Shown: piece by piece, positions 7,163-49,510 of the stretch
Numbering within the stretch: position 1 is the stretch's first letter
Layout: every line of letters begins with the position of its first letter
Source: Limnoperna fortunei
Lineage: Eukaryota > Mollusca > Bivalvia > Mytilida > Modiolidae
NCBI GenBank assembly: GCA_944474755.1
Contig: OX104124.1
Span: 24,712,452-24,776,451, forward strand
Direction of reading: 5' to 3'
Length of the DNA: 64,000 nucleotides
Notes under the pieces: model-generated
What the model was told of the DNA's origin: nothing
Databases searched by the model: none
What the model saw: the letters and a program-made list of their open reading frames with translations, nothing else
Program-made: the position numbers and the translations under genes

Positions 7163-8613
7163 TAGCTCACCTGACCCAAAGGGTCATGTGAGCTATTGTT
7201 ATCACTTTGCGTCCGTCGGCGTCGTCGTCGTCGGCGGCGGGGGCGGCGGCGGCGGCGTCTGTAAACTTTTTACATTTTAATCTTCTTCTCTGAAACCACT
7301 TGGCCAATTGAAACCAAACTTGGCCATAATGTTCATTGGATGGACCTTTACAAAGTTTGTGTTTTTTATTTTGATTGGTAAACCAATATGGCCGCCACCT
7401 CAAGACTTAGTTTAACATAGGCCCTATGGGAAAAAAGTTAAAAAGGGCTTCTTCTCTGAAACCGTTTAACCAATCAAAACAAAACTTACTAGCAATATTG
7501 TTTAGATGGTCCTCTATAAAGTTTGTGTTTTAGATGGGAATTGGAAATTCAAAATGGCCGCCACTGCAGGACTTAGTTTAACATAGAACCCTATGGGAAA
7601 AAGTTTTAAAAGGCTTCTTCTCTGAAACCGGTTAATCAATGGAAATAAAAACTTACTAGCAATATTGTTTGGATGGTCCTCTATATAGTTTGTGTTTTTT
7701 ATGGCAATTGGAAATTCAAAATGGCCGCCACTGCAGGACTTAGTTTAACATAGAACCCTATGGGAAAAAGTTTTAAAAGGCTTCTTCTCTGAAACCGGTT
7801 AATCAATGGAAACAAAAACTTACTAGCAATATTGTTTGGATGGTCCTCTATAAAGTTTGTGTTTTTTATGGCAATTGGAAATTCAAAATGGCTGCCACTG
7901 CAGGACTTAATTTAACATAGAACCCTATGGGAAAAAGTTTGAATGGCTTCTTTTCTGAAACCGGCCAACTAATGGAAACAAAACTTACTAGCAATATTGT
8001 TTGGATGGCCCTCTATAAAGTTAATGTTTTTTATCCCAATCTGATATTCAAAATGGCCGCCACCGCAGGACTTAGTTTAACATTGGACCCTTTGGGAAAA
8101 AGGTTAAAAAGGGCTTTTTCTCTAAAACCGGTTAACCAATCAAAACAAAACTTACTAGCAATATTGTTTGGATGGTCCTTTATAAAGTTTATGATTTTTA
8201 TGCCAACTGGAATTCAAAATGGCCGCTACCGCAGGACTTAGTTTAACATAGGACCCTATGGGAAAAAGTTTTTAAAGGCTTCTTCTCTGAAACCGGTTAA
8301 TCAATGGAAACAAAAACTTACTAGCAATATTGTTTGGATGGTCCTTTATAAAGTTAATGTTTTTATGGCAATTGGAAATTCAAAATGGCCACCTCCCCCG
8401 CAGGACTTAGTTTAACATAGGACCCTATGGGCAAATAAAAAAAATCTTCTCTATACAACTGGTTAACCAATGAAACAAAGCTTTCTAGTAATATTGTTTG
8501 GATGGTCCTATTTAAAGTTTATTGAAAATTACAGGACTTACTTTAACATCAGGGAAATGCCATCTTCATTGCCTATAAAATCAGGTGAGCGATACAGGCT
8601 CTTAAGAGCCTCT
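7163..8613 (+). mobile_element. Pearl/HINE-like element, family 2
   Basis: It starts TTAGCTCACCTGACCC with a hairpin around GACCCAAAGGGTC. A GC-rich CGTCGGCG/GGCGGCGG segment follows. About seven units of roughly 155-165 bp then contain TACTAGCAATATTGTTTGGA and TTCAAAATGGCCGCCAC. It ends with the hairpin GGCTCTTAAGAGCC and CTGG, then TTTA. The terminal architecture matches family 1 with a different core. A full opposite-strand copy lies at 13364-14798. Open frames inside are by-products of the repeat. Confidence 0.65.
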
Positions 8614-8830: not shown

Positions 8831-10680
8831 CAGGCCTCTTTGGTCTTACCATAACTGAGGTGTCAACACGGGCATCTGTTGTCTATCCTGCACTGAGATG
8901 TCAACACTGGCCTCTGGTCTAACCTTCACAGAGGTGTCAACGCGGGCCTCTGTTGTCTATCCTGCACTGAGATGTCAACACTGGCCTCTGGTCTAACCTT
9001 CACAGAGGTGTCAACGCGGGCCTCTGTTGTCTATCCTTAACTGAGATGTTAACACAGGCCTCTGTGGTCTAACCTTCACTGTGATGTCAACACCGGCCTC
9101 TGATCTAACCTTCACTGAGGTGTCAACGCGGGCCTCTGTTGTCTATCCTTAACTGAGATGTCAACACTGGCCTCTGTGGTATAACCTTCACCGTGATGTC
9201 AACACTGGCCTCTGGTCTAACCTTCCCTGAGGTGTCAACTCTGGCTTCTGTGATCTAACCTTTACTGGGGTGTTAACACTGGCTTCTGTGGTATAACCTT
9301 CACTGAGGTGTCAACACTGGCCTCTGTGATCTAACCTTCACTGAGGTATCAACACTGGCCTCTGTGATCTAACCTTTACTGAGGTGTTTACACTGGCCTC
9401 TGTGGTATAACCTTCACTGAGGTATCAACACTGGCTTCTGTGATCTAACCTTTACTGAGGTGTCAACACTGGCCTCTACGGTATAACCTTCACTGAGGTG
9501 TCAACACTGGCCTCTGTGGTATAACCTTCACTGAGGTGTCAACACTGGCTTCTGTGGTATAAACTTCACTGAGGTGTCAACACTGGCCTCTGTGGTATAA
9601 CCTTCATTGAGGTGTCAATTCTGGCCTCTGTGATCTAACCTTTACTGAGGTGTCAACACTGGCCTCTGTGGTATAACCTTCACTGAGGTATCAACACTGG
9701 CTTCTGTGATCTTACCTTTACTGAGGTGTCAACACTGGCCTCTGTGGTATACCTTCACTGAGGTGTCAACACTGGCCTCTGTGGGATAACCTTCACTGAG
9801 GTGTCAACACTGGCCTCTGTGGTATAACCTTCACTGAGGTGTCAACACTGGCCTCTGTGGTATAACCTTCACTGAGGTGTCAACACTGGCCTCTGTGGTA
9901 TAACCTTCACTGAGGTGTCAACACTGGCCTCTGTGATCTAACCTTCACTGAGGTGTCAACACTGGCCTCTGTGGTATAACCATCACTGAGGTGTCAACAC
10001 TGGCCTCTGTGATCTAACCTTCACTGAGGTGTCAACACTGGTCTCTGTGGTATAACCTTCACTGAGGTGTCAACACTGGCCTCTGTGATCTAACCTTCAC
10101 TGAGGTGGCAACACAGGCCTCTGTGATCTAACCTTCACTGAGGTGTCAACACTGGCCTCTGTGATCTAACCTTCACTGAGGTGTCAACACAGGCCTCTGT
10201 GATCTAACCTTTACTGAGGTGTCAACACTGGCGGTTGTTGTATAACCTTCACTGAGGTGTCAACACTGGCCTCTGTGGTATAACCTTCACTGAGGTGTCA
10301 ACACTGGCCTCTGTGGTATAACCTTCACTGAGGTGTCAACACTGGCCTCTGTGATCTAACCTTCACTGAGGTGTCAACACTGGCCTCTGTGGTATAACCT
10401 TCACTGAGGTATCAACACTGGCCTCTGTGATCTAACCTTCACTGAGGTGTCAACACTGGCCTCTGTGGTATAACTTTCACTGAGGTGTCAACACTGGCCT
10501 CTGTGATCTAACCTTCACTGAGGTGTCAACACTGGCCTCTGTGGTATAACCTTCACTGAGGTGTCAACACTGGCCTCTGTGGTATAACCTTCACTGAGGT
10601 GTCACCACTGGCCTCTGTGATCTAACCTTCACTGAGGTGTCAACACAGACCTCTGTGATCTAACCTTTATAGAGATATAA
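8831..10680. repeat. Minisatellite, 38-bp unit, about 48 copies
   Basis: Tandem 38-bp units of the type CTTCACTGAGGTGTCAACAC + TGGCCTCTGTGGTATAAC. Two variants, GTGGTATAAC and GTGATCTAAC, alternate irregularly. The left end (to about 9300) is more diverged and contains a higher-order duplication with TTGTCTATCC. It lies between the convergent host genes and has no coding frame or splice signals. Confidence 0.95.
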
Positions 10681-13363: not shown

Positions 13364-14798
13364 CCAGAGGCTCTTAAGAGCCTGTATCGCTCACCTGATT
13401 TTATAGGCAATGAAGGTGGCATTTCCCTGATGTTAAAGTAAGTCCTGTAATTTTCAATAAACTTTAAATAGGACCATCCAAACAATATTACTAGAAAGCT
13501 TTGTTTCATTGGTTAACCGGTTGTATAGAGAAGATTTTTTTTATTTGCCCATAGGGTCCTATGTTAAACTAAGTCCTGCAGCGGTGGCGGCCATTTTGAA
13601 TTTCCAATTGCCATAAAAAACATAAACTTTATAAAGGACCATCCAAACAATATTGCTAGTAAGTTTTTATTTCCATTGATTAACCGGTTTCAGAGAAGAA
13701 GCCTTTAAAAACATTTTCCCATAGGGTCCTATGTTAAAGTAAGTCCTGCGGTAGCGGCCATTTTGAATTTCCAATTGCCATAAAAAACATAAACTTTATA
13801 GAGGACCATCCAAACAATATTGCTAGTAAGTTTTTGTTACCATTGATTAACCGGTTTCAGAGAAGAAGCCTTTAAAAACATTTTCCCATAGGGTCCTATG
13901 TTAAATCAAGTCCTGCGGTAGTGGCCATTTTGAATTTCCAATAGCCATAAAAAACATAAACTTTATAGAGGACCATCCAAACAATATTGATAGTAAGTTT
14001 TGTTTTGATTGGTTAAACGGTTTCAGAGAAGAAGCCCTTTTAAACTTTTTTCTCATAGGGTCGAATGTTAAACTAAGTCCTGCTGTGGCGGCCATTTTGA
14101 ATTTCCAATTCCCATCAAAAACACAAACTTTATAGAGGACCATCCACACAATATTGCTAGTAAGTTTTGTTTCCATTGGTTGACCGGTTTCAGAAAAGAA
14201 GCCTTTCAAACTTTTTCCCATAGGGTCCTATGTTAAATCAAGTCCTGCGGTGGCAGCCATTTTGAATTTCCAATTGCCATAAAAAACACAAACTTTATAG
14301 AGGACCATCCAAACAATATTGCTAGTAAGTTTTTGTTTCCATTGATTAACCGGTTTCAGAGAAGAAGCCTTTTAAAATTTTTCCCATAGAGTTCTATGTT
14401 AAACTAAGTCCTGCGGTGGCGGCCATTTTGAATTTCCAATTCCCATCAAAAACACAAACTTTATAGAGGACCATCCACACAATATTGCTAGTAAGTTTTG
14501 TTTTGATTGGTTAAACGGTTTCAGAGAAGAAGCCCTTTTAAACTTTTTCCCCATAGGGTCCTATGTTAAACTTAGTCTTGAGGTGGCGGCCATATTGGTT
14601 TACCAATCAAAATAAAAAACAAACTTTGTAAAGGTCCATCCAATGAACATTATGGCCAAGTTTGGTTTCAATTGGCCAAGTGGTTTCAGAGAAGAGGATT
14701 AAAATGTAAAAAGTTTACAGACGCTGACGACAACGACGACGCCGACGGACGCAAAGTGATAACAATAGCTCACATGACCCTTTGGGTCAGGTGAGCTA
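13364..14798 (-). mobile_element. Pearl/HINE-like element, family 2, inverted copy
   Basis: Reverse-orientation relative of 7163-8613. It starts with the hairpin GGCTCTTAAGAGCC preceded by CCAGA, holds about seven roughly 165-bp units, and ends with TGACCCTTTGGGTCAGGTGAGC. The purine-rich GACGACAACGACGACGCCGA segment is the counterpart of the CGTCGGCG segment. Read on the minus strand, the 3' end is CTGG followed by T. Confidence 0.65.
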
Positions 14799-18074: not shown

Positions 18075-18283
18075 TCAAACAGTTGAACCGTTACAACGGT
18101 ATCTGGCAAACACAAGCTGCTTATTTCCGACATGATTTGTACCTGTATTTGGCAGCACTTCCTCCCATCTATACATCAATATATCCACCGGCTGATTTAC
18201 CCAAACATCCTTCTCACAATCATTGATAGTGGACCGCTTCCTGGGGTCAGGATGTAATAAACCCATCAATAAAAACATCAATG
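18075..18283 (-). CDS. PASK: PAS-domain kinase, last kinase exon and C-terminus
   Basis: The exon follows ATAATTTCAG and continues phase 1 from the exon at 19236-19369. It encodes kinase subdomains X-XI: LLMGLLHPDPRKRS, then KDVWVNQPVD, then YRWEEVLPN. HPDPRKR carries the conserved Arg of subdomain XI, and the WVNQPV...WEEV segment is typical of PASK. Reading on gives a 20-residue tail and a stop at 18075. An in-frame CAG|GTACAA donor at 18143/18142 could instead splice to a further 3' exon, so the exact C-terminus is uncertain. Confidence 0.8.
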
Positions 18284-19137: not shown

Positions 19138-19407
<270 letters not shown>

Positions 19408-19647: not shown

Positions 19648-19869
<222 letters not shown>

Positions 19870-20392: not shown

Positions 20393-20635
20393 TATCATCA
20401 CAATATTGTATTGTGGTATCATCAGGACCTATCCAACCTCCAAGTCACAATATTGTATTGTGGTATCATCAGGACCTATCCAACCTCCAAGTCACAATAT
20501 TGTATTGTGGTATCATCAGGACCTATCCAACCTCCAAGTCACAATATTGTATTGTGGTATCATCAGGACCTATCCAACCTCCAAGTCACAATATTGTATT
20601 GTGGTATCATCAGGACCTATCCAACCTTCAAGTTT
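20393..20635. repeat. 47-bp tandem repeat, about five copies
   Basis: Five nearly identical units beginning CACAATATTGTATTGTGGTA and ending GACCTATCCAACCTCCAAG. CAATATTG inside is palindromic. It lies in the PASK intron between exons 20944-21078 and 19649-19848. It does not copy exon sequence, and the three open frames through it come from the repeat. Confidence 0.95.
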
Positions 20636-20724: not shown

Positions 20725-21126
<402 letters not shown>

Positions 21127-21804: not shown

Positions 21805-23452
21805 GAGTGTCTGTCTGTTATACTTACAGATACTATGTTAGGATGAGATAACTTCCTCAGAAGGCCAAGCGTCTGTCTGTTATACTTACAGATACTATGT
21901 TAGGATGAGACAACTTCCTCAGAAGGCCAAGTGTCTGTCTGTTATACTTACAGATACTATGTTAGGATGAGAAAACTTCCTCAGAAGGCCAAGTGTCTGT
22001 CTGTTATACTTACAGATACTATGTTAAGATGAGATAACTTCCTCAGAAGGCCAAGTGTCTGTCTGTTATACTTACAGATACTATGTTAGGATGAGATAAC
22101 TTCCTCAGAAGGCCAAGTGTCTGTCTGTTATACTTACAGATACTATGTTAGGATGAGATAACTTCCTCAGAAGGCCAAGTGTCTGTCTGTTATACTTACA
22201 GATACAATGTTAGGATGAGATAACTTCCTCAGAAGGCCAAGTGTCTGTCTGTTATACTTACAGATACTATGTTAGGATGAGATAACTTCCTCAGAAGGCC
22301 AAGTGTCTGTGTGTTATACTTACAGATACTATGTTAAGATGAGATAACTTCCTCAGAAGGCCAAGTGTCTGTCTGTTATACTTACAGATACTATGTTAGG
22401 ATGAGATAACTTCCTCAGAAGGCCAAGTGCCTGTCTGTTATACTTACAGATACAATGTTAGGATGAGATAACTTCCTCAGAAGGCCAAGTGTCTGTCTGT
22501 TATACTTACAGATACTATGTTAGGATGAGATAACTTCCTCAGAAGGCCAAGTGTCTGTCTGTTATACTTACAGATACTATGTTAGGATGAGACAACTTCC
22601 TCAGAAGGCCAAGTGTCTGTCTGTTATACTTACAGATACTATGTTAAGATGAGATAACTTCCTCAGAAGGCCAAGTGTCTGTCTGTTATACTTACAGATA
22701 CAATGTTAGGATGAGATAACTTCCTCAGAAGGCCAAGTGTCTGTCTGTTATACTTACAGATACTATGTTAGGATGAGACAACTTCCTCAGAAGGCCAAGT
22801 GTCTGTCTGTTATACTTACAGATACTATGTTAGGATGAGACAACTTCCTCAGAAGGCCAAGTGTCTGTCTGTTATACTTACAGATACTATGTTAGGATGA
22901 GACAACTTCCTCAGAAGGCCAAGTGTCTGTCTGTTATACTTACAGATACTATGTTAGGATGAGATAACTTCCTCAGAAGGCCAAGTGTCTGTCTGTTATA
23001 CTTACAGATACAATGTTAGGATGAGACAACTTCCTCAGAAGGCCAAGTGTCTGTCTGTTATACTTACAGATACTATGTTAAGATGAGACAACTTCCTCAG
23101 AAGGCCAAGTGTCTGTCTGTTATACTTACAGATACTATGTTAAGATGAGATAACTTCCTCAGAAGGCCAAGTGTCTGTCTGTTATACTTACAGATACTAT
23201 GTTAGGATGAGATAACTTCCTCAGAAGGCCAAGTGTCTGTCTGTTATACTTACAGATACAATGTTAGGATGAGATAACTTCCTCAGAAGGCCAAGTGTCT
23301 GTCTGTTATACTTACAGATACTATGTTAGGATGAGATAACTTCCTCAGAAGGCCAAGTGTCTGTCTGTTATACTTACAGATACAATGTTAGGATGAGATA
23401 ACTTCCTCAGAAGGCCAAGTGTCTGTCTGTTATACTTACAGATACTATGTTA
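21805..23452 (-). repeat. 62-bp array duplicating a PASK exon end and its splice donor
   Basis: Twenty-seven donor sites sit at exactly 62-bp spacing: the first at 21826-21827 and the authentic one at 23438-23439, which is 26 x 62 = 1612 bp. On the gene strand each unit is 39 nt of exon (GGCCTTCTGAGGAAGTTATC and on to ATAGTATCT) plus 23 nt of intron (GTAAGTATAACAGACAGACA and CTT). Units differ by a few substitutions: TACTATG/TACAATG, TTAGG/TTAAG, GATAAC/GACAAC. Confidence 0.97.
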
Positions 23453-23565
23453 GGATGAGATAACTTCCTCAGAAGGCCAACCTCCATTGGAATTCTCTCT
23501 CCTGTTCTTTCAGTAATCCAACACTCTGACAACACTTTACATTTCCTTATAAATTTCACAACCAC
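23440..23565 (-). CDS. PASK: PAS-domain kinase, catalytic-lysine exon
   Basis: A 126-bp, 42-codon exon in phase 0 on both sides, with acceptor TTTTTTTTCAG. It encodes VVVKFIRKCKVL with the ATP-binding subdomain II lysine, then CWITERTGERIPMEVGLL, with the helix-C Glu probably in MEVGLL, and ends KLSHPNIVS. The donor TCT|GTAAGT is the gene-proximal member of the 62-bp donor array that follows. Using any later donor adds VSITDRHLAF and then TGA, truncating the kinase. Confidence 0.93.
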
Positions 23566-33702: not shown

Positions 33703-35117
33703 ATGGGTCCGGTACGTAACACAGCTCGTGTAACGAGAGGGCTGTATGACCCAGAGTTGATGGAGAACTGGACATTGAACCGTCTAAAACAGGAACTTAT
33801 GAAAAGAAACATTGACTTCCCTAACAATGCCAGGCGAATGGCGCTCGTGCGCTTGTTGAAGCAGTCAATTTCCAACCAAGAGGAGCACGCTAATGCCAAT
33901 ACCATTTTAGGTAGTGCGCGATCCCAGAATGCAAGCACTTCGCAAGATGACGTTGTTCAAGATGGCCGCGCCCAGGGTGTGAACAAACTCTTATAAACTT
34001 CGTCGCTAGCATGTCTTCTACTATGCAAACCTTGCAGCGAACGGTCACAGATTTGTCAGGTAAAGTGAACAATTTAATTAATAAAGGTGCAGAAAATAGG
34101 AACTGTTCCGCAACCGAACAGGCTCGTGTATACCAATCGCAAGAATCGCAACAAGCAGGATCGAGCCAACAATACAACAGAGAATCAGTTCTAGAAACAT
34201 CTTTCGACTTGCAATCGGCGTATAAAGCACTAAATCACCGCATTTTGGGGAATGGTCGACAGTCAATACCAAGTGCGGCAGCGGGAAGTGAAATGCAAGC
34301 TACAGCAATGGCTAGTTGCTCTCCGCCGTCTCAGTGGGGCTACTCTGCCGAGAACCTGCCATTTGTGGAAACTATTTCCCCTCAGATAAAAAAGAACATT
34401 ATTTCAGGTAGGGATATTAATTTAGCCACCCTATTGATTCCCTACTTCAGTGGTTCAGGGATAAATGCTACAGAGTGTTGTGAAGCGGAAATTAAAGTTA
34501 AACCAGATTTTAGATTAAACAGAAATTTAAGTATTGCTGAGTTCATACAGGCCTTCGGTATTTACAAGAATGTAATGTGCTCGGCATTTCCACAAAGACG
34601 TACAGAGATGGATTTATACGAGCGGGATATCGTGGATATGGCAACAAGGTACCAAGGTCAGGGATTTTACGAGTACCACAAACGATTTTCAGCTGAGGCA
34701 GCAGCTCACCTGACTTACAATAACACAGCAATTGATTGGTCTATTAGAAATAACACTCTGTTCTGTAATATTTTTTCCAATTTAAGACCATTAGCTTGTT
34801 CCATATGTTCTAGCACTTTTCACACGGCCAACTCTTGTAATAGAACCATTCATAGGGCGAGCTCTCTTAAATCCAATTACATGTATAAGAGAAATGACGA
34901 AGTTGACACTTATGGCAGAGAACGTATTTTTTATCAAGATAGAGAGATCTGTAACAATTTTAATGGGTCCAAAGGTTGTCTTTCTTTAAGATGTAGAAAT
35001 TATCATATTTGTGTATCATGCAAAGGTGACCATGCTAAAGTCAACTGCCCCCTCGCGTCAAAAAACGAGGGAGTGGGGTCTCAGAGAATAGGGGCCCCCA
35101 TGTCGAGAAAGAATTGA
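33703..35117 (+). pseudogene. Gag-like ORF with SAP domain and zinc knuckles, frame break near 33990
   Basis: The first frame (33703-33996) has a SAP-like motif, LNRLKQELMKRNIDF...ALVRLLKQ. It stops at 33996, and an overlapping frame that is open before the ATG at 34011 continues to 35117. The second part has a central Gag-like region with WSIRNNTLFCNIFSNLRPLA, then a cysteine/histidine cluster: CNNF.....C....C...H.CVSCKGDHAKVNCPL. This resembles the nucleic-acid-binding end of Ngaro/DIRS Gag. The frame change could be a mutation or programmed slippage; I favour mutation. Confidence 0.7.
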
Positions 35118-36743
35118 GATGTTTGACACACAGTTGTATTAATTTGGAGATACACACCCCAATTCAAGTCGACAGATTAGAAAAGGAGCTACAAAATTAT
35201 CCTGATAAAAATTTTTCAAATTATCTATTGTCAGGGCTCAGAAATGGTTTTGATACTGGTATTAAAGAACTTCCTGCAAATTCTATTATTTGCAAAAATT
35301 TACGATCAGCTTTATCGAATAAAGACACAGTGTCAGAGTTAATTAAAAATGAAGTTAGTAAAGGTTATCTTAATGGTCCCTATGAAACGATTCCATATGT
35401 TAATTTTAGAATCAATCCTGTAGGGGTGGCAGAAGGAAAATACAATAAAAAGAAGCGATTAATTGTGGATCTGTCGGCACCACATGACGATTTTGACAAC
35501 CCAAGCTTAAATGAGTTGATAGATAAACAAGAATTTTCTTTACAATATGTCTCTATCGACGATGCTATAAAAATTATTAAAAAATTAGGGGAAGGTTCTT
35601 GGTTAATTAGAACTGATATCACTGATGCTTTTAAAACAATTCCGTTAGCACCTTGTCTGTGGCCATATCATGGAATACATTTATTGGAACAATGAATATT
35701 TTTTCTTCAATAAGTTGGTTTTTGGTAGTAGATCATCTCCAAAAATTTTTGATAATTTATCAAAAGCCGTTTGCTGGATAGCTGAGCATAATTATGGAAT
35801 CGATAACGTTTTACATTTGCTCGATGATTTTCTTGTTATAGTCCCACCGGAAGGCAATGCCCAAGGAATCATGAATTCATTTTTAAGTATATTTGCAGAA
35901 TTAGGTATCCCTCTGTCTGCAAAGAAAACTGAAGGTCCATGTACAGAATTAGAATATTTAGGGATTCATTTAGATACTCAAAAAATGGAAGCACGTTTGC
36001 CTATTGAGAAAGTTAAGCGTATTCAAGAAATAATTGAATCCTTTTCTACAAGAAAGTCATGTACTAAGAGGGAGCTTTTAAGTCTCCTAGGCCACTTTAA
36101 TTTTGCTAGTAGAGTAATTCATCCAGGCCGTTCATTTGTTTCACATTTGATTAAACTGTCAACTTCAGTTTCTAAGTTGTCACATTATGTTAGCATAAAA
36201 CAATGTATGTCAGATTTAGCCATGTGGGCTAGTGTTTTAAAGAATTGGAATGGCATGTCATTCTTTTTAAATGATTATATGACTAAAGCATCAGATATGA
36301 ACTTGTATACAGATGCGACTGACAAATCGTTTGGGTGTTTTTATAATAACAAATGGTTCCAAGGATATTTTCCCGATTCGATTTTAAAAGAAGACACATC
36401 AATGGCTCTTTTTGAACTGTACCCCATAGTCATGGCTTGTGTTTTATGGGGACACTCGTGGGCTAGACTTAAAATCTTGTTTTATTGTGATAATTTATCT
36501 ACGGTTGAAATAATAAATAAAGGTAGATCTCGTAATCACAGTATTATGAAGCTGATGCGAAAATTGACCTATCACTCTGCAGTGAACAATTATATCATTT
36601 ATGCAAAGCACATACCGGGGCGTTTCAACACTATAGCTGATGCCATCTCTCGGTTTCAGATGACAAAGTTTCGGAGGTTAGCACCCCTTGCAGAGGAGCT
36701 CCAAACTCCTTGTATCCCTCCATCCTTGCTGCTGATGGACTAG
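35114..36743 (+). pseudogene. Reverse transcriptase-RNase H ORF with a frame break near 35680
   Basis: The first part ends at 35695 after KKRLIVDLSAPHDDFDNPSL and the first catalytic Asp in RTDITDAFKTIPLAP. The continuation, in another frame, is open around 35670-36743 and has FGSRSSPKIFD, the catalytic box HLLDDFLV and LEYLGIHLD. RNase H follows with LYTDATDKSFG, LFELYPIVMA and YCDNLSTVEIINKG, ending near DAISRF. Order and motifs match DIRS/Ngaro RT-RH. The split lies between RT motifs and so breaks the enzyme. The 4-base overlap with the gag stop suggests coupled translation. Confidence 0.88.
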
Positions 36744-36745
36744 AT

Positions 36746-37714
36746 ATGAACATTGAGAAATTGTGGGACGCCTGTATAAGCAAGCAAACAAAACAGGTGT
36801 ATACAACCGGTTTTAACTGTTTTGTTAAATTTTTGAAGATGAATAGGTACACAGACTACACATTGGACTTAAACATCATTTCTGAAGATCATCTTATTCA
36901 GTTTGTTACATACTGTAAATTTGTTTTAAACCTAAAATTTGATACAATCAGCTTGTATCTAGCAGGAGTTCGACACTTTTTTATTCGTTATCATAAAAGT
37001 GACCCGTTAGTAAATACTATTCGTTTGGATTATATTTTAAGAGGCATCAAGAAAATACAAATCAATGCCACAAATAAGCGGTTCCCAAGTACTTCAGATA
37101 TATTGTTGGTTATGTGTAAAGAATTGGGAAAAGGAGTGTTTTCCCAATTTATTGATAGAATGTTACTTTGTATTTTTACAATGGCATTCTTTGGTTTCCT
37201 TCGCTGTGGAGAATTTACTCGTAATAATGATAGTGACCCATATCTTATTATAAATGATATTCATTTAGCCAAAGGGACAAAGTACACCATACATTTAAAG
37301 TCTTCCAAGTGTGATCGTTTTAATAAGGGGGTTCACATAGATATTTTTGAAAATGAGACAACATTGCCAGTTAAGGAAATGAGCGAGTACTTAGAGGAGA
37401 GAATGAAGCAAGGTGCTGTCGCATCTTCCCCCTTATTCATTGAAAATGATTTTGATAATCGACCCCTTTCTAGAAAAACTTTTATTAGATTACTCAAGGT
37501 AGTTTTGCAAAAATGTGGTTTTAATGATAGCTTATTTTCGGGCCACTCCTTTCGTATTGGTGCAGCTACATCAGCTGCAGCAGCAGGTGTAGAAGATCAC
37601 ATCATCAAGGCCCTAGGTAGATGGAATTCTGACTGTTATATTAGATATATCAGAATCAATAAAGATATTTTAAATTTGGCACAACAAGACATGTGTCCAC
37701 ATAATTTTATATAA
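36746..37714 (+). CDS. Tyrosine recombinase of Ngaro-type retrotransposon
   Basis: The ORF has 322 residues starting at the ATG three bases after the RT stop; the frame is open further upstream. The N-terminal SAM-like helical region includes KQTKQVYTTGFNCFVKFLK. The catalytic region shows the first Arg in GFLRCGEFTR, the HxxR box in FSGHSFRIGAATSAAAAG, and the Tyr in LGRWNSDCYIRYI. All R-H-R-Y residues are present, so this ORF appears intact. Such enzymes insert the circular cDNA in place of a DDE integrase. From 37715 to 37937 nothing else was seen. Confidence 0.92.
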   Translation: MNIEKLWDACISKQTKQVYTTGFNCFVKFLKMNRYTDYTLDLNIISEDHLIQFVTYCKFVLNLKFDTISLYLAGVRHFFIRYHKSDPLVNTIRLDYILRGIKKIQINATNKRFPSTSDILLVMCKELGKGVFSQFIDRMLLCIFTMAFFGFLRCGEFTRNNDSDPYLIINDIHLAKGTKYTIHLKSSKCDRFNKGVHIDIFENETTLPVKEMSEYLEERMKQGAVASSPLFIENDFDNRPLSRKTFIRLLKVVLQKCGFNDSLFSGHSFRIGAATSAAAAGVEDHIIKALGRWNSDCYIRYIRINKDILNLAQQDMCPHNFI

Positions 37715-37937: not shown

Positions 37938-39133
37938 GGCCTGCATAATTTCGGGGAAATTATTTCTCCCCCAATTATATACATCAGGTTTTTTTATGTT
38001 TTTAATACATGTTTAGGTTACATTACACATATATGGGTTTAGTGCTAATGATGCTGGGTTCTACCACATCACCCTGAATGTTCCAATACTTAGAGTTGCT
38101 AAAGCTGGGTTCTACCGCTTAGCACGTGCCGGGTTATAACGCATTAAACAAACTTTGCTCTACAACATTTATAAAAGCTGGGTTCTACCGCTTTTCCTAT
38201 GCTGGGTTCTACCGCATACAACTATTAATCAAGCTGGGTTCTACCGCTTTCCTCTGCTGGGTTCTACCGCACACAACAATGCTGGGCTCTACCACATTGA
38301 TGCTATACATGTAACGTTTTGTTCAGTTTGGATTTTACACTTCACATTATGCTGGGTTCTACCGCATAATAGCAGGGGTACATTGTAGTTTTGTTATGAT
38401 TTAGTTGTAGAAAACACTTAAGTATTTAGTCACTGTTATTTTTCTATTTTGTATTTGTAAGTAGTAAATGAGTAGCCCCCAAGACGCCAAAAGATACATC
38501 CAGTTTTTAATATTACATGAGTTTGTTTTATACTGTAATGAGCAGATAGTTTACTTGTATATGATTTGTTTATATTTTAGTATTCCAATGCATTTAGTAG
38601 TAATAAATGTGTTCTTATCTATGTTTTATTATCTATAATAATGCAACTAGGAAGTACTTATATTATGAATCTGGCTTCTAGATAGGGTTAGTCATGTAAC
38701 TTTGTGACAACATGAACTTGGGATGTACTTGACATATTTACTAGATAGATGAACTTGGTATGCACCCATCATAATTACTAGGTAGATGGACTTGGAATGC
38801 TCTTGACATAATTACTTGGTTAAGGAACTTGGTATACAGATGTAATAGATCAGTATTGGTACTTGCTTGAAAGCATAGTAGGCTTTTCAGAGCGTAAAAA
38901 GGGTCTTTGAACAAACAGGTAGCCAGCAGGTAACCCATACCAGTGCGGCACGTATAAGCACTAGCAGTTATAGATTACATAAGAATGCAACAACTCGTGC
39001 GGCATGTATAAGCACTATCAGTTATAGATTACATAAGGATGCAACAACTCGTAATGTTCCTTGTTCACCTTACGTTGACATGTAAATAATGAAGTTGAAC
39101 TAGTCGTTAGTCTTATATCAGATGATGAATAAA
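37938..39133 (+). repeat. Ngaro split direct repeat B1 with a reiterated 15-bp motif
   Basis: 1196 bp, repeated at 40309-41503. Between 38049 and 38370 it carries about nine copies of GCTGGGTTCTACCGC, with variants ending CCACA and one GGGTTATAACGC. The far end GATGATGAATAAA abuts A2. ORFs here are short and not conserved features. Confidence 0.92.
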
Positions 39134-40308: not shown

Positions 40309-41503
40309 GGCCTGCATAATTTCGGGGAAATTATTTCTCCCCCAATTATATACATCAGGTTTTTTATGTTTTTAATACATGTTTAGGTTACATTACACAT
40401 ATATGGGTTTAGTGCTAATGATGCTGGGTTCTACCACATCACCCTGAATGTTCCAATACTTAGAGTTGCTAAAGCTGGGTTCTACCGCTTAGCACGTGCC
40501 GGGTTATAACGCATTAAACAAACTTTGCTCTACAACATTTATAAAAGCTGGGTTCTACCGCTTTTCCTATGCTGGGTTCTACCGCATACAACTATTAATC
40601 AAGCTGGGTTCTACCGCTTTCCTCTGCTGGGTTCTACCGCACACAACAATGCTGGGCTCTACCACATTGATGCTATACATGTAACGTTTTGTTCAGTTTG
40701 GATTTTACACTTCACATTATGCTGGGTTCTACCGCATAATAGCAGGGGTACATTGTAGTTTTGTTATGATTTAGTTGTAGAAAACACTTAAGTATTTAGT
40801 CACTGTTATTTTTCTATTTTGTATTTGTAAGTAGTAAATGAGTAGCCCCCAAGACGCCAAAAGATACATCCAGTTTTTAATATTACATGAGTTTGTTTTA
40901 TACTGTAATGAGCAGATAGTTTACTTGTATATGATTTGTTTATATTTTAGTATTCCAATGCATTTAGTAGTAATAAATGTGTTCTTATCTATGTTTTATT
41001 ATCTATAATAATGCAACTAGGAAGTGCTTATATTATGAATCTGGCTTCTAGATAGGGTTAGTCATGTAACTTTGTGACAACATGAACTTGGGATGTACTT
41101 GACATATTTACTAGATAGATGAACTTGGTATGCACCCATCATAATTACTAGGTAGATGGACTTGGAATGCTCTTGACATAATTACTTGGTTAAGGAACTT
41201 GGTATACAGATGTAATAGATCAGTATTGGTACTTGCTTGAAAGCATAGTAGGCTTTTCAGAGCGTAAAAAGGGTCTTTGAACAAACAGGTAGCCAGCAGG
41301 TAACCCATACCAGTGCGGCACGTATAAGCACTAGCAGTTATAGATTACATAAGAATGCAACAACTCGTGCGGCATGTATAAGCACTATCAGTTATAGATT
41401 ACATAAGGATGCAACAACTCGTAATGTTCCTTGTTCACCTTACGTTGACATGTAAATAATGAAGTTGAACTAGTCGTTAGTCTTATATCAGATGATGAAT
41501 AAA
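40309..41503 (+). repeat. Ngaro split direct repeat B2
   Basis: Nearly identical to B1. By eye I see one T deleted in a T run (near 40367) and A to G near 41026. A 20-bp word with TGCATAATTTCGGGGAA is duplicated just upstream. 40127-40308 is non-coding. Confidence 0.92.
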
Positions 41504-43454: not shown

Positions 43455-43619
43455 CTCTTTTCCATCAGTTTTTCTAAATCCAGTTTTTACAAATCCAAAG
43501 GCTCCTTTCCCAATAGAGTCCATGGTTTCATATTTCAGATCATACAGCCCCCTTCCTGGTGACTTCTCATTTTCTTCACCCTCTCCTTTTTCTTCATTGT
43601 CATTCTTATCAACAGACAA
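43455..43619 (-). CDS. PASK: PAS-domain kinase, glycine-loop exon
   Basis: A 165-bp, 55-codon exon in phase 0 on both sides, with acceptor ATCTGTAG and donor GAG|GTAGGT. It starts LSVDKND, passes an acidic stretch (EEKGEGEENEK), then GLYDLKYETMDSIGKGAFGF with the ATP-binding loop, and ends FRKTDGKE. It joins to VVVKF of exon 23440-23565 across a 19.9-kb intron. A family 1 pearl-like fragment abuts its 3' side within about 35 bp. Confidence 0.92.
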
Positions 43620-48066: not shown

Positions 48067-49313
48067 AAAATAATAAATCAACAGGGCCAAGGATTAGAAA
48101 TAAAACTTACTGGAAAAGTACAGAGATCAAGAATTTAGCATTTGGTAATGTCTACAATAAGCCTAATCTTTTTCAAAATCTTCTAAAGGTGTCTATATTG
48201 TGCAAGAAGTGTAGCACTCTCCACATATGTTACCCACTATGATCTGTGGTCAGGCTTACTGTATTATAACCTAACAAGCCCCAGAGGGCTTCCACGGCCA
48301 CTATGCACATCTGTATGTAGATCAGAGTTATTTTGAAAAAAAAAACTTATGGTATTTCTTGTGCTTATTTACTAAAATGATCATTTGAAACAACATCTAA
48401 AAAAGATAACACTTTATTTATAGAACTATTTTTTCTTCCTCCATAAAGAGCAGTTAACAGGCTGTACTGAAGGCAACTATTAAAGACAATTAATGTCACA
48501 GAGATTATTGTGTTACCTTGGACATAGAAACCAGCAACAATTTATTTCACACCTGTGAAATCTGCCAGAGCCAAGTATTATACACAAGATAAGGTAAAGT
48601 CATGTCAATTAATGAAATCACTTGTTGTACTGTAAGAACACAAGTTTAGGTGCATAAATATGTTACAGTATTAACATGACTCATCTAAATGTGACCCATC
48701 TTTATGTTAGAGTATTAACATGACAGTCCTACATGTTTATACTAAATGTTGTCATATTTTGGTTATTGTATTTGCATGACAATGAAAACTACTTACCGTA
48801 TATGGTCCATCTTACGCTCCTTTTGTAGATAAAAAAACTGTGTAAATTTAATTCAACAATCATTTTCCACAGTTATTTAGCGTTTTGAAATGCGACTGAT
48901 TTTTCATTGTGATAGAGCAATTTTCTATAGAAAAGTCTGACCTAAATTGCAACGGAAGTGTATGTTTGGAAGAGTCCTTGTGGTCTGTTCAAAATCCTTT
49001 AGGTAATATCGTCTGCAGTTAAGTTGGGAAAATCCTCCTGGTTTGTCCGAATACCACTGAACATAACGAAAGCAGACGATCCTTTTGAAAAAAATGCTAG
49101 GTCCCTTTAGAAAGTCAAATGGCTGACTTCCTATGTAAAAATCCTGTAGGAAATGTCAAAAACCATTTGGAACATGTCAACAACAAAAGCATAATATAAA
49201 ATATTGATGTGTTATCATGTAGAATTGTTTTAAATTTGATTTTAACACTACAAATGGAATAATAAAAAAATGCAAGCATAACACTGAGCACAAGGGGGTG
49301 TATCTTTTAGTAT
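48067..49313. other. PASK intron, non-coding
   Basis: No exon was seen. A diverged copy of the 44-bp exon-end unit lies at about 48657-48736 (CTAAATGTGACCCATCTTTA). 48780-49270 has no recognised structure. Confidence 0.55.
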
Positions 49314-49510
49314 AAATGTAACCCATCTTTATGTTACAATATTAACATGACTTACCTAAATGTGACCCATCTTTATGTTACAATATTAACATGACTTACC
49401 TAAATGTGACCCATCTTTATGTTACAATATTAACATGACTTACCTAAATGTGACCCATCTTTATGTTACAATATTAACATGACTTACCTAAATGTGACCC
49501 ATCTTTATGA
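49314..49510 (-). repeat. 44-bp array duplicating the large exon's end and splice donor
   Basis: Four donors (GT at about 49487, 49443, 49399, 49355) are spaced exactly 44 bp apart, with a fifth unit lacking the donor at 49314-49348. On the gene strand each unit is 22 nt of intron (GTAAGTCATGTTAATATTGT + AA) and 22 nt of exon (CATAAAGATGGGTCACATTT + AG). Confidence 0.95.

Follow-up and report, generated by a model that had tools for sequence, protein, structure and literature searches.

The window examined here, a stretch of 64,000 bp from the genome of the bivalve Limnoperna fortunei (C14:24712452-24776451, in an assembly of 1.335 Gb and 285 contigs), carries a PASK gene of which seven exons were mapped (table 1). 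Stitched together, its kinase exons match the Pfam family Pkinase (E = 4e-53), and the exon encoding the catalytic lysine (VVVKFIRKCKVLSECWITERTGERIPMEVGLLRKLSHPNIVS) shares an open frame with the exon starting at 21078; joined, these two exons match human PASK (PDB 3dls, E = 2.1e-17), which bears out the gene identity given in a first-pass annotation of this DNA. Also within the window are long open frames on the plus strand (33703-37711) that by eye resemble a retrotransposon with a reverse transcriptase and a tyrosine recombinase, a pair of short tandem repeats that occurs twice at a distance of 2370 bp (38712-39052 and 41082-41422) and so suggests a direct duplication of ~2.4 kb, and two 167-bp satellite arrays about 5 kb apart and apparently in opposite orientation (7282-8520 and 13457-14695), with a similar array at C14:24669540. 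Kinase-like genes form a large tandem family elsewhere in the assembly, with dozens of protein-kinase matches of near-equal score, many of them ~1.3 kb apart.

Table 1. Features mapped at the PASK locus and at related loci; positions count from the first letter of the window unless a contig is named.
Feature	Position	Strand	Basis
PASK exon, C-terminal end of kinase domain; donor GTACAA, no array	18143-18283	minus	exon census
PASK exon; donor GTAAGG, no array	19236-19369	minus	exon census
PASK exon with HRD and DFG motifs; donor GTAACT, no array	19649-19848	minus	exon census
PASK exon following the catalytic-lysine exon; acceptor ttacacag at 5' end; donor GTAATA, no array	20944-21078	minus	exon census
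PASK donor array: 27 copies, 62-bp unit, 27 GTAAGT donors	21805-23478 (21806-23480 in Tandem Repeats Finder)	minus	unit alignment, Tandem Repeats Finder
G of 27th donor, most intron-proximal	21827	minus	unit alignment
Authentic donor GTAAGT, first and exon-proximal; G at 23439	23434-23439	minus	unit alignment, exon census
PASK exon with catalytic lysine (VVVKFIRK...HPNIVS), 126 nt	23440-23565	minus	PDB match, exon census
PASK exon with glycine-rich loop; donor GTAGGT, no array	43455-43619	minus	exon census
Array at the other PASK exon end: four GTAAGT donors in 44-bp units, each 22 nt of exon plus 22 nt of intron	49313-49509	minus	
Long PASK exon ending in second array; 5' end picked by simple acceptor score	49488-50491	minus	exon census
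EXOC3 exon-end array: 41-bp unit, about nine copies, 83% matches	C14:24688218-24688576		
GMEB-like gene exon-end array: 44-bp unit, three copies	C14:24635912-24636044		
IFT172 exon-end array: 47-bp unit, 12 donors	C1		
Kinase-like tandem family loci	C1:52064725-52089304, C1:69305411-69352313, C6:18352677-18365461, C45:574-13672		

Donor arrays at two PASK exon ends

At the catalytic-lysine exon, the repeated unit (CTGTAAGT) straddles the exon-intron boundary, with 39 nt on the exon side and 23 nt on the intron side. All 26 donor-to-donor spacings equal 62 bp without a single indel, placing the first and last donors (23439 and 21827) 1612 bp, or 26 x 62, apart; Tandem Repeats Finder reports a period of 62 with 27.0 copies, 97% matches, and 0% indels. 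Each copy departs from the consensus by 0-2 substitutions and GTAAGT is never altered, a regularity far beyond chance. Three positions of the unit vary among the copies, in several combinations and without regular pattern, which points to exchange or conversion within the array; such reassortment within one assembly, in which the copy number is as assembled, is an indirect sign of the length instability typical of mirages (minisatellite-like repeats over exon-intron boundaries, discussed below). The outermost copy is a real exon end, the frame being intact up to the first donor and again from 21078 onward, whereas reading on past the first donor meets TGA after ten codons. The unit, the donor count, the spacing, and this loss of frame had all been correctly described in the first-pass annotation, which nevertheless gave an incomplete account of the gene in that it overlooked the second array. 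It had also raised the prospect that an uncluttered copy of the exon elsewhere is the one used. A two-unit DNA query of the whole assembly, whose first look passed one candidate place, returned 13 matches, all at C14:24734257-24735930 (the array itself); this DNA-level search found no other copy of the exon, which disfavors such a duplicate.

The second PASK array has its donors at 49487, 49443, 49399, and 49355, the exon ending at 49488, and all four junctions read TTTAG/GTAAGT, in which a donor directly follows what looks like the end of an acceptor; we take this to resemble the recursive splice site consensus. Losing one unit of this array (49355-49487, minus strand) would restore an identical junction, and its AG/GTAAGT junctions could in principle permit intron gain by tandem duplication. 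Among the seven mapped PASK donors, both that read GTAAGT carry arrays and none of the five others (GTAGGT, GTAATA, GTAACT, GTAAGG, and GTACAA) does. Two further arrays in the window, one with a 47-bp unit (20398-20633) and one with a 38-bp unit in 48.5 copies (8833-10667), lack GTRAGT and touch no mapped PASK exon end, and we do not count them as mirages.

Arrays at other exon ends and the GTAAGT motif

The arrangement had been treated as peculiar to a single locus, which is wrong, as several such arrays are present in this genome. Two were found in a contiguous 284-kb stretch that includes the window, in EXOC3 (two joined exons match Sec6 in Pfam, E = 1.8e-13) and in a GMEB-like gene, and a third lies in IFT172 (the array exon matches PDB 8bd7, E = 4.6e-12). 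The GMEB-like array exon itself has no Pfam match at E = 0.1, and its PDB match is at chance level; judged by its position, it presumably belongs to the same gene as a nearby SAND exon, which resembles human GMEB1 (E = 6.7e-12). At both PASK arrays and those of EXOC3, the GMEB-like gene, and IFT172, the unit spans the exon-intron boundary, and in all five an in-frame stop follows within 13 codons of the first donor, so that intact genes require the first donor. A single mobile element seems an unlikely source of the arrays, since the units differ and by eye have little in common beyond the donor. The same region holds an array (C14:24694357-24697570) in which a partly self-complementary 34-bp unit is repeated about 82 times, with GTAAGT on both strands.

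We compiled a census of 23 exons from three neighboring genes (PASK 7, EXOC3 13, and GMEB-like 3), a small sample in which the catalytic-lysine exon of PASK and the GMEB-like array exon entered owing to their arrays, one GMEB-like exon (24636913-24637530) lacks a valid acceptor, and a simple score served to place several of the EXOC3 ends. Arrays occupy 4 of the 23 donors versus none of the 23 acceptors (one-sided Fisher test, P = 0.054), and they fall on 4 of 8 donors of the strongest type, GTAAGT, versus 0 of 15 other donors (P = 0.0079, or 0.023 after dropping one of the exons chosen for its array); without both array-chosen exons, the latter comparison becomes two of six versus 0 of 15 (P = 0.07). 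Random placement of arrays would put 0.64 of the 23 donors within an edge unit where four are observed (P of four or more = 0.004; 0.025 without one array-chosen exon and 0.12 without both).

Across the whole assembly we counted triplets, that is, a motif occurring three times at 28-58 bp spacing, for AGGTAAGT (which we take to be the perfectly U1-complementary form of the donor), for AGGTGAGT (presumably not so), and for an anagram and an acceptor-like control; these counts refer to matches rather than loci and owe much to a handful of long arrays. AGGTAAGT yields 5914 triplets against 2154 for its mirror pattern, whereas the excess of AGGTGAGT over its mirror is slight (1612 and 1365), the anagram AGTGAAGT gives 1000 (mirror 927), and the acceptor-like TTTTGCAG gives 542 (mirror 621). 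AGGTAAGT thus exceeds the seven control motifs (542-2154) 2.7- to 11-fold, although as a single motif it is rarer than its mirror (51,448 versus 64,255; singles were counted for this pair only). In the first 10.24 Mb of C1, a chromosome end that is possibly atypical, 13 arrays of AGGTAAGT stand among the matches listed, compared with 2 of AGTGAAGT, 2 of AGGTGAGT, and 3 of TTTTGCAG, loci being counted by eye under a 2-kb rule. When the flanks of four of these C1 arrays of AGGTAAGT were read, a recognizable coding exon end was found in one (IFT172), in two the frame upstream of the first donor is open for nine codons at most, and in one for 20-22 codons. Many arrays would then sit at noncoding exons, or else the motif is amplified outside exons too.

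In the 284-kb sample the enrichment of GTAAGT in arrays is moderate only. This sequence holds 118 array loci, with 72 kb masked as tandem repeat; GTAAGT occurs in 10 array-strand cases, the mean for 90 anagrams being 5.2 and four six-mers including GTAAGT itself reaching 10. Its 92 occurrences outside arrays fall short of the anagram mean of 122. Among array unit families, GTAAGT was observed in 6 where 2.3 were expected (P = 0.03), which ranks it 67-68 of 3047 six-mers in a count that missed the second PASK array through its period filter.

Choice among equal donors

We hypothesize that the 27-copy PASK array is a donor-side mirage minisatellite, tolerated because the first of its equal donors is the one spliced, and assign this reading a probability of about 0.68. 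The minisatellite would have grown out of these 39 exonic and 23 intronic nucleotides and would since have changed through unequal exchange or conversion. The first, exon-proximal donor would be joined to the exon at 21078 because the first of equal tandem donors is favored, and the other 26 would pass as intron sequence. Where a later donor is occasionally used, a premature stop would result and that mRNA would probably decay. The array would be one of many in this genome with GTAAGT-type donors. Predicted RNA structure offers no selector of the first copy, as the units fold no better than shuffled sequences (z = -0.47 and +0.29); all 27 donors are predicted to be poorly accessible (0.002-0.066, with 0.02 for the first copy), within the limits set by 80 other GTAAGT sites.

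A preference of this kind is described in a designed reporter library assayed in human cells, in which, according to the available text, the first of two tandem 5' splice sites is predominantly used when both are consensus (P = 3.3e-5) and no order preference is seen for tandem 3' splice sites; the study itself states that earlier evidence on the order of tandem donors was conflicting (PMC6783452). If this preference, seen with two donors in human cells, also applies to 27 donors in a bivalve, an extrapolation by analogy, donor arrays may grow harmlessly where acceptor arrays would not, which fits the census count of four donors and no acceptors. The first-pass annotation had offered dominance of exon-proximal recognition as one of its readings, and the reporter data and the lancelet mirages make it the best fitting of them, with use of the first donor in PASK being what we infer. 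Its statement that the splicing machinery must select the most upstream donor does follow from the frame; such a choice is less odd than it may seem.

The same frame information has been read as regulation, with the array tuning PASK because whatever share of transcripts uses a later donor gains a stop and is destroyed by nonsense-mediated decay, copy number setting that share. That the later donors are all intact and each leads to a stop, and that none of the unit lengths (62, 44, 41, and 47 bp) is divisible by three, accords with this proposal; yet stops are expected past nearly any intron start, and the arrays sit in the unrelated genes PASK, EXOC3, GMEB-like, and IFT172, so that we consider tuning improbable. 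Distal donors might instead be kept as U1 snRNP sites that aid exon recognition or shield the intron from premature polyadenylation. To this we give similarly little credence: the triplet excess does lie in the form perfectly complementary to U1, and three of the four C1 arrays lack a recognizable coding exon end, but the copies are so alike that conservation of the motif is indistinguishable from recent origin. Inflation of the copy number by assembly error, to which tandem arrays are prone, is very improbable given that the copies hold distinguishing variants without regular pattern and that arrays with different units occur at several loci.

More weight attaches to the view that arrays land at random in a minisatellite-rich genome with no preference for donors, selection merely clearing those that strike acceptors and exons. 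The abundance of arrays in the 284-kb sample, the middling rank of GTAAGT among their six-mers, and the loss of significance in the census once both array-chosen exons are removed all speak for it; the full edge-unit count and the genome-wide triplet excess of a motif that is rarer than its mirror when single speak against it, and on balance we hold it to be possible but unlikely. Tolerance of a donor-side mirage accounts for the survival of donor arrays; that GTAAGT arrays outnumber neutral controls calls for something more, either a seeding bias or a benefit. We tentatively suggest, at somewhat less than even odds, that a perfectly U1-complementary 5' splice site itself seeds tandem amplification, GTAAGT far more so than acceptors, matched sequences, or donors of other forms; something at the donor, such as an R-loop or U1-bound nascent RNA, would promote duplication, or else the arrays would be kept once formed.

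Known tandem systems and wider meaning

The PASK array resembles the mirages of amphioxus, minisatellite-like tandem repeats that lie over exon-intron boundaries with splice signals in the unit and for which, in the available text, the data suggest that regular splicing is intact (PMC3087553; PMC3902484). Amphioxus units are reported as 10-72 bp in Adh3 and about 150-160 bp in the globins BflGb6 and BflGb9, on donor as well as acceptor sides, so that the 62-bp unit falls within the range of 10-160 bp. PGBD5 and troponin C are further amphioxus cases cited in the same literature, and the 60- and 108-bp repeats over PGBD5 splice sites number 2 or 7 and 3 or 6 depending on the assembly (PMC3902484). 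The 27 copies in PASK compare with up to seven in the amphioxus cases of known number, among which Adh3 is not included. Further, the arrays described here belong to another animal group and, among mapped exons, are donor-side only and tied to GTAAGT, whereas BflGb6 is acceptor-side and PGBD5 involves both kinds of site as far as the accessible text goes. Among the matches listed in our literature search, which covered mainly freely accessible papers, no boundary-spanning arrays appeared beyond amphioxus; the available text of papers on earthworm metallothionein, C. elegans minisatellites, and tunicate GH6 genes describes intronic minisatellites or nothing relevant, and no exon-end repeats.

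Intron gain by tandem genomic duplication, reportedly seen in potato RdRp and in Drosophila, likewise involves the tandem duplication of sequence that contains a splice signal; in the accounts available it makes a new intron, whereas in PASK an existing intron merely lengthens. A new intron inside former coding sequence is not what we find, as both PASK arrays extend from the end of an exon into the intron behind it. The subtle tandem GYNGYN donors of TassDB2 are also 5' splice sites competing in a row, but as described there they lie 2-12 nt apart, compared with 27 sites at 62-nt spacing in PASK.

Natural rows of equal donors such as these are a ready-made test of spliceosome choice among identical sites, for which the reporter study used two. 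The most interesting part of the data is the excess of GTAAGT arrays over controls: if it holds, splice signals would be linked to the birth of minisatellites, and the resulting arrays would provide material from which introns could lengthen or arise.
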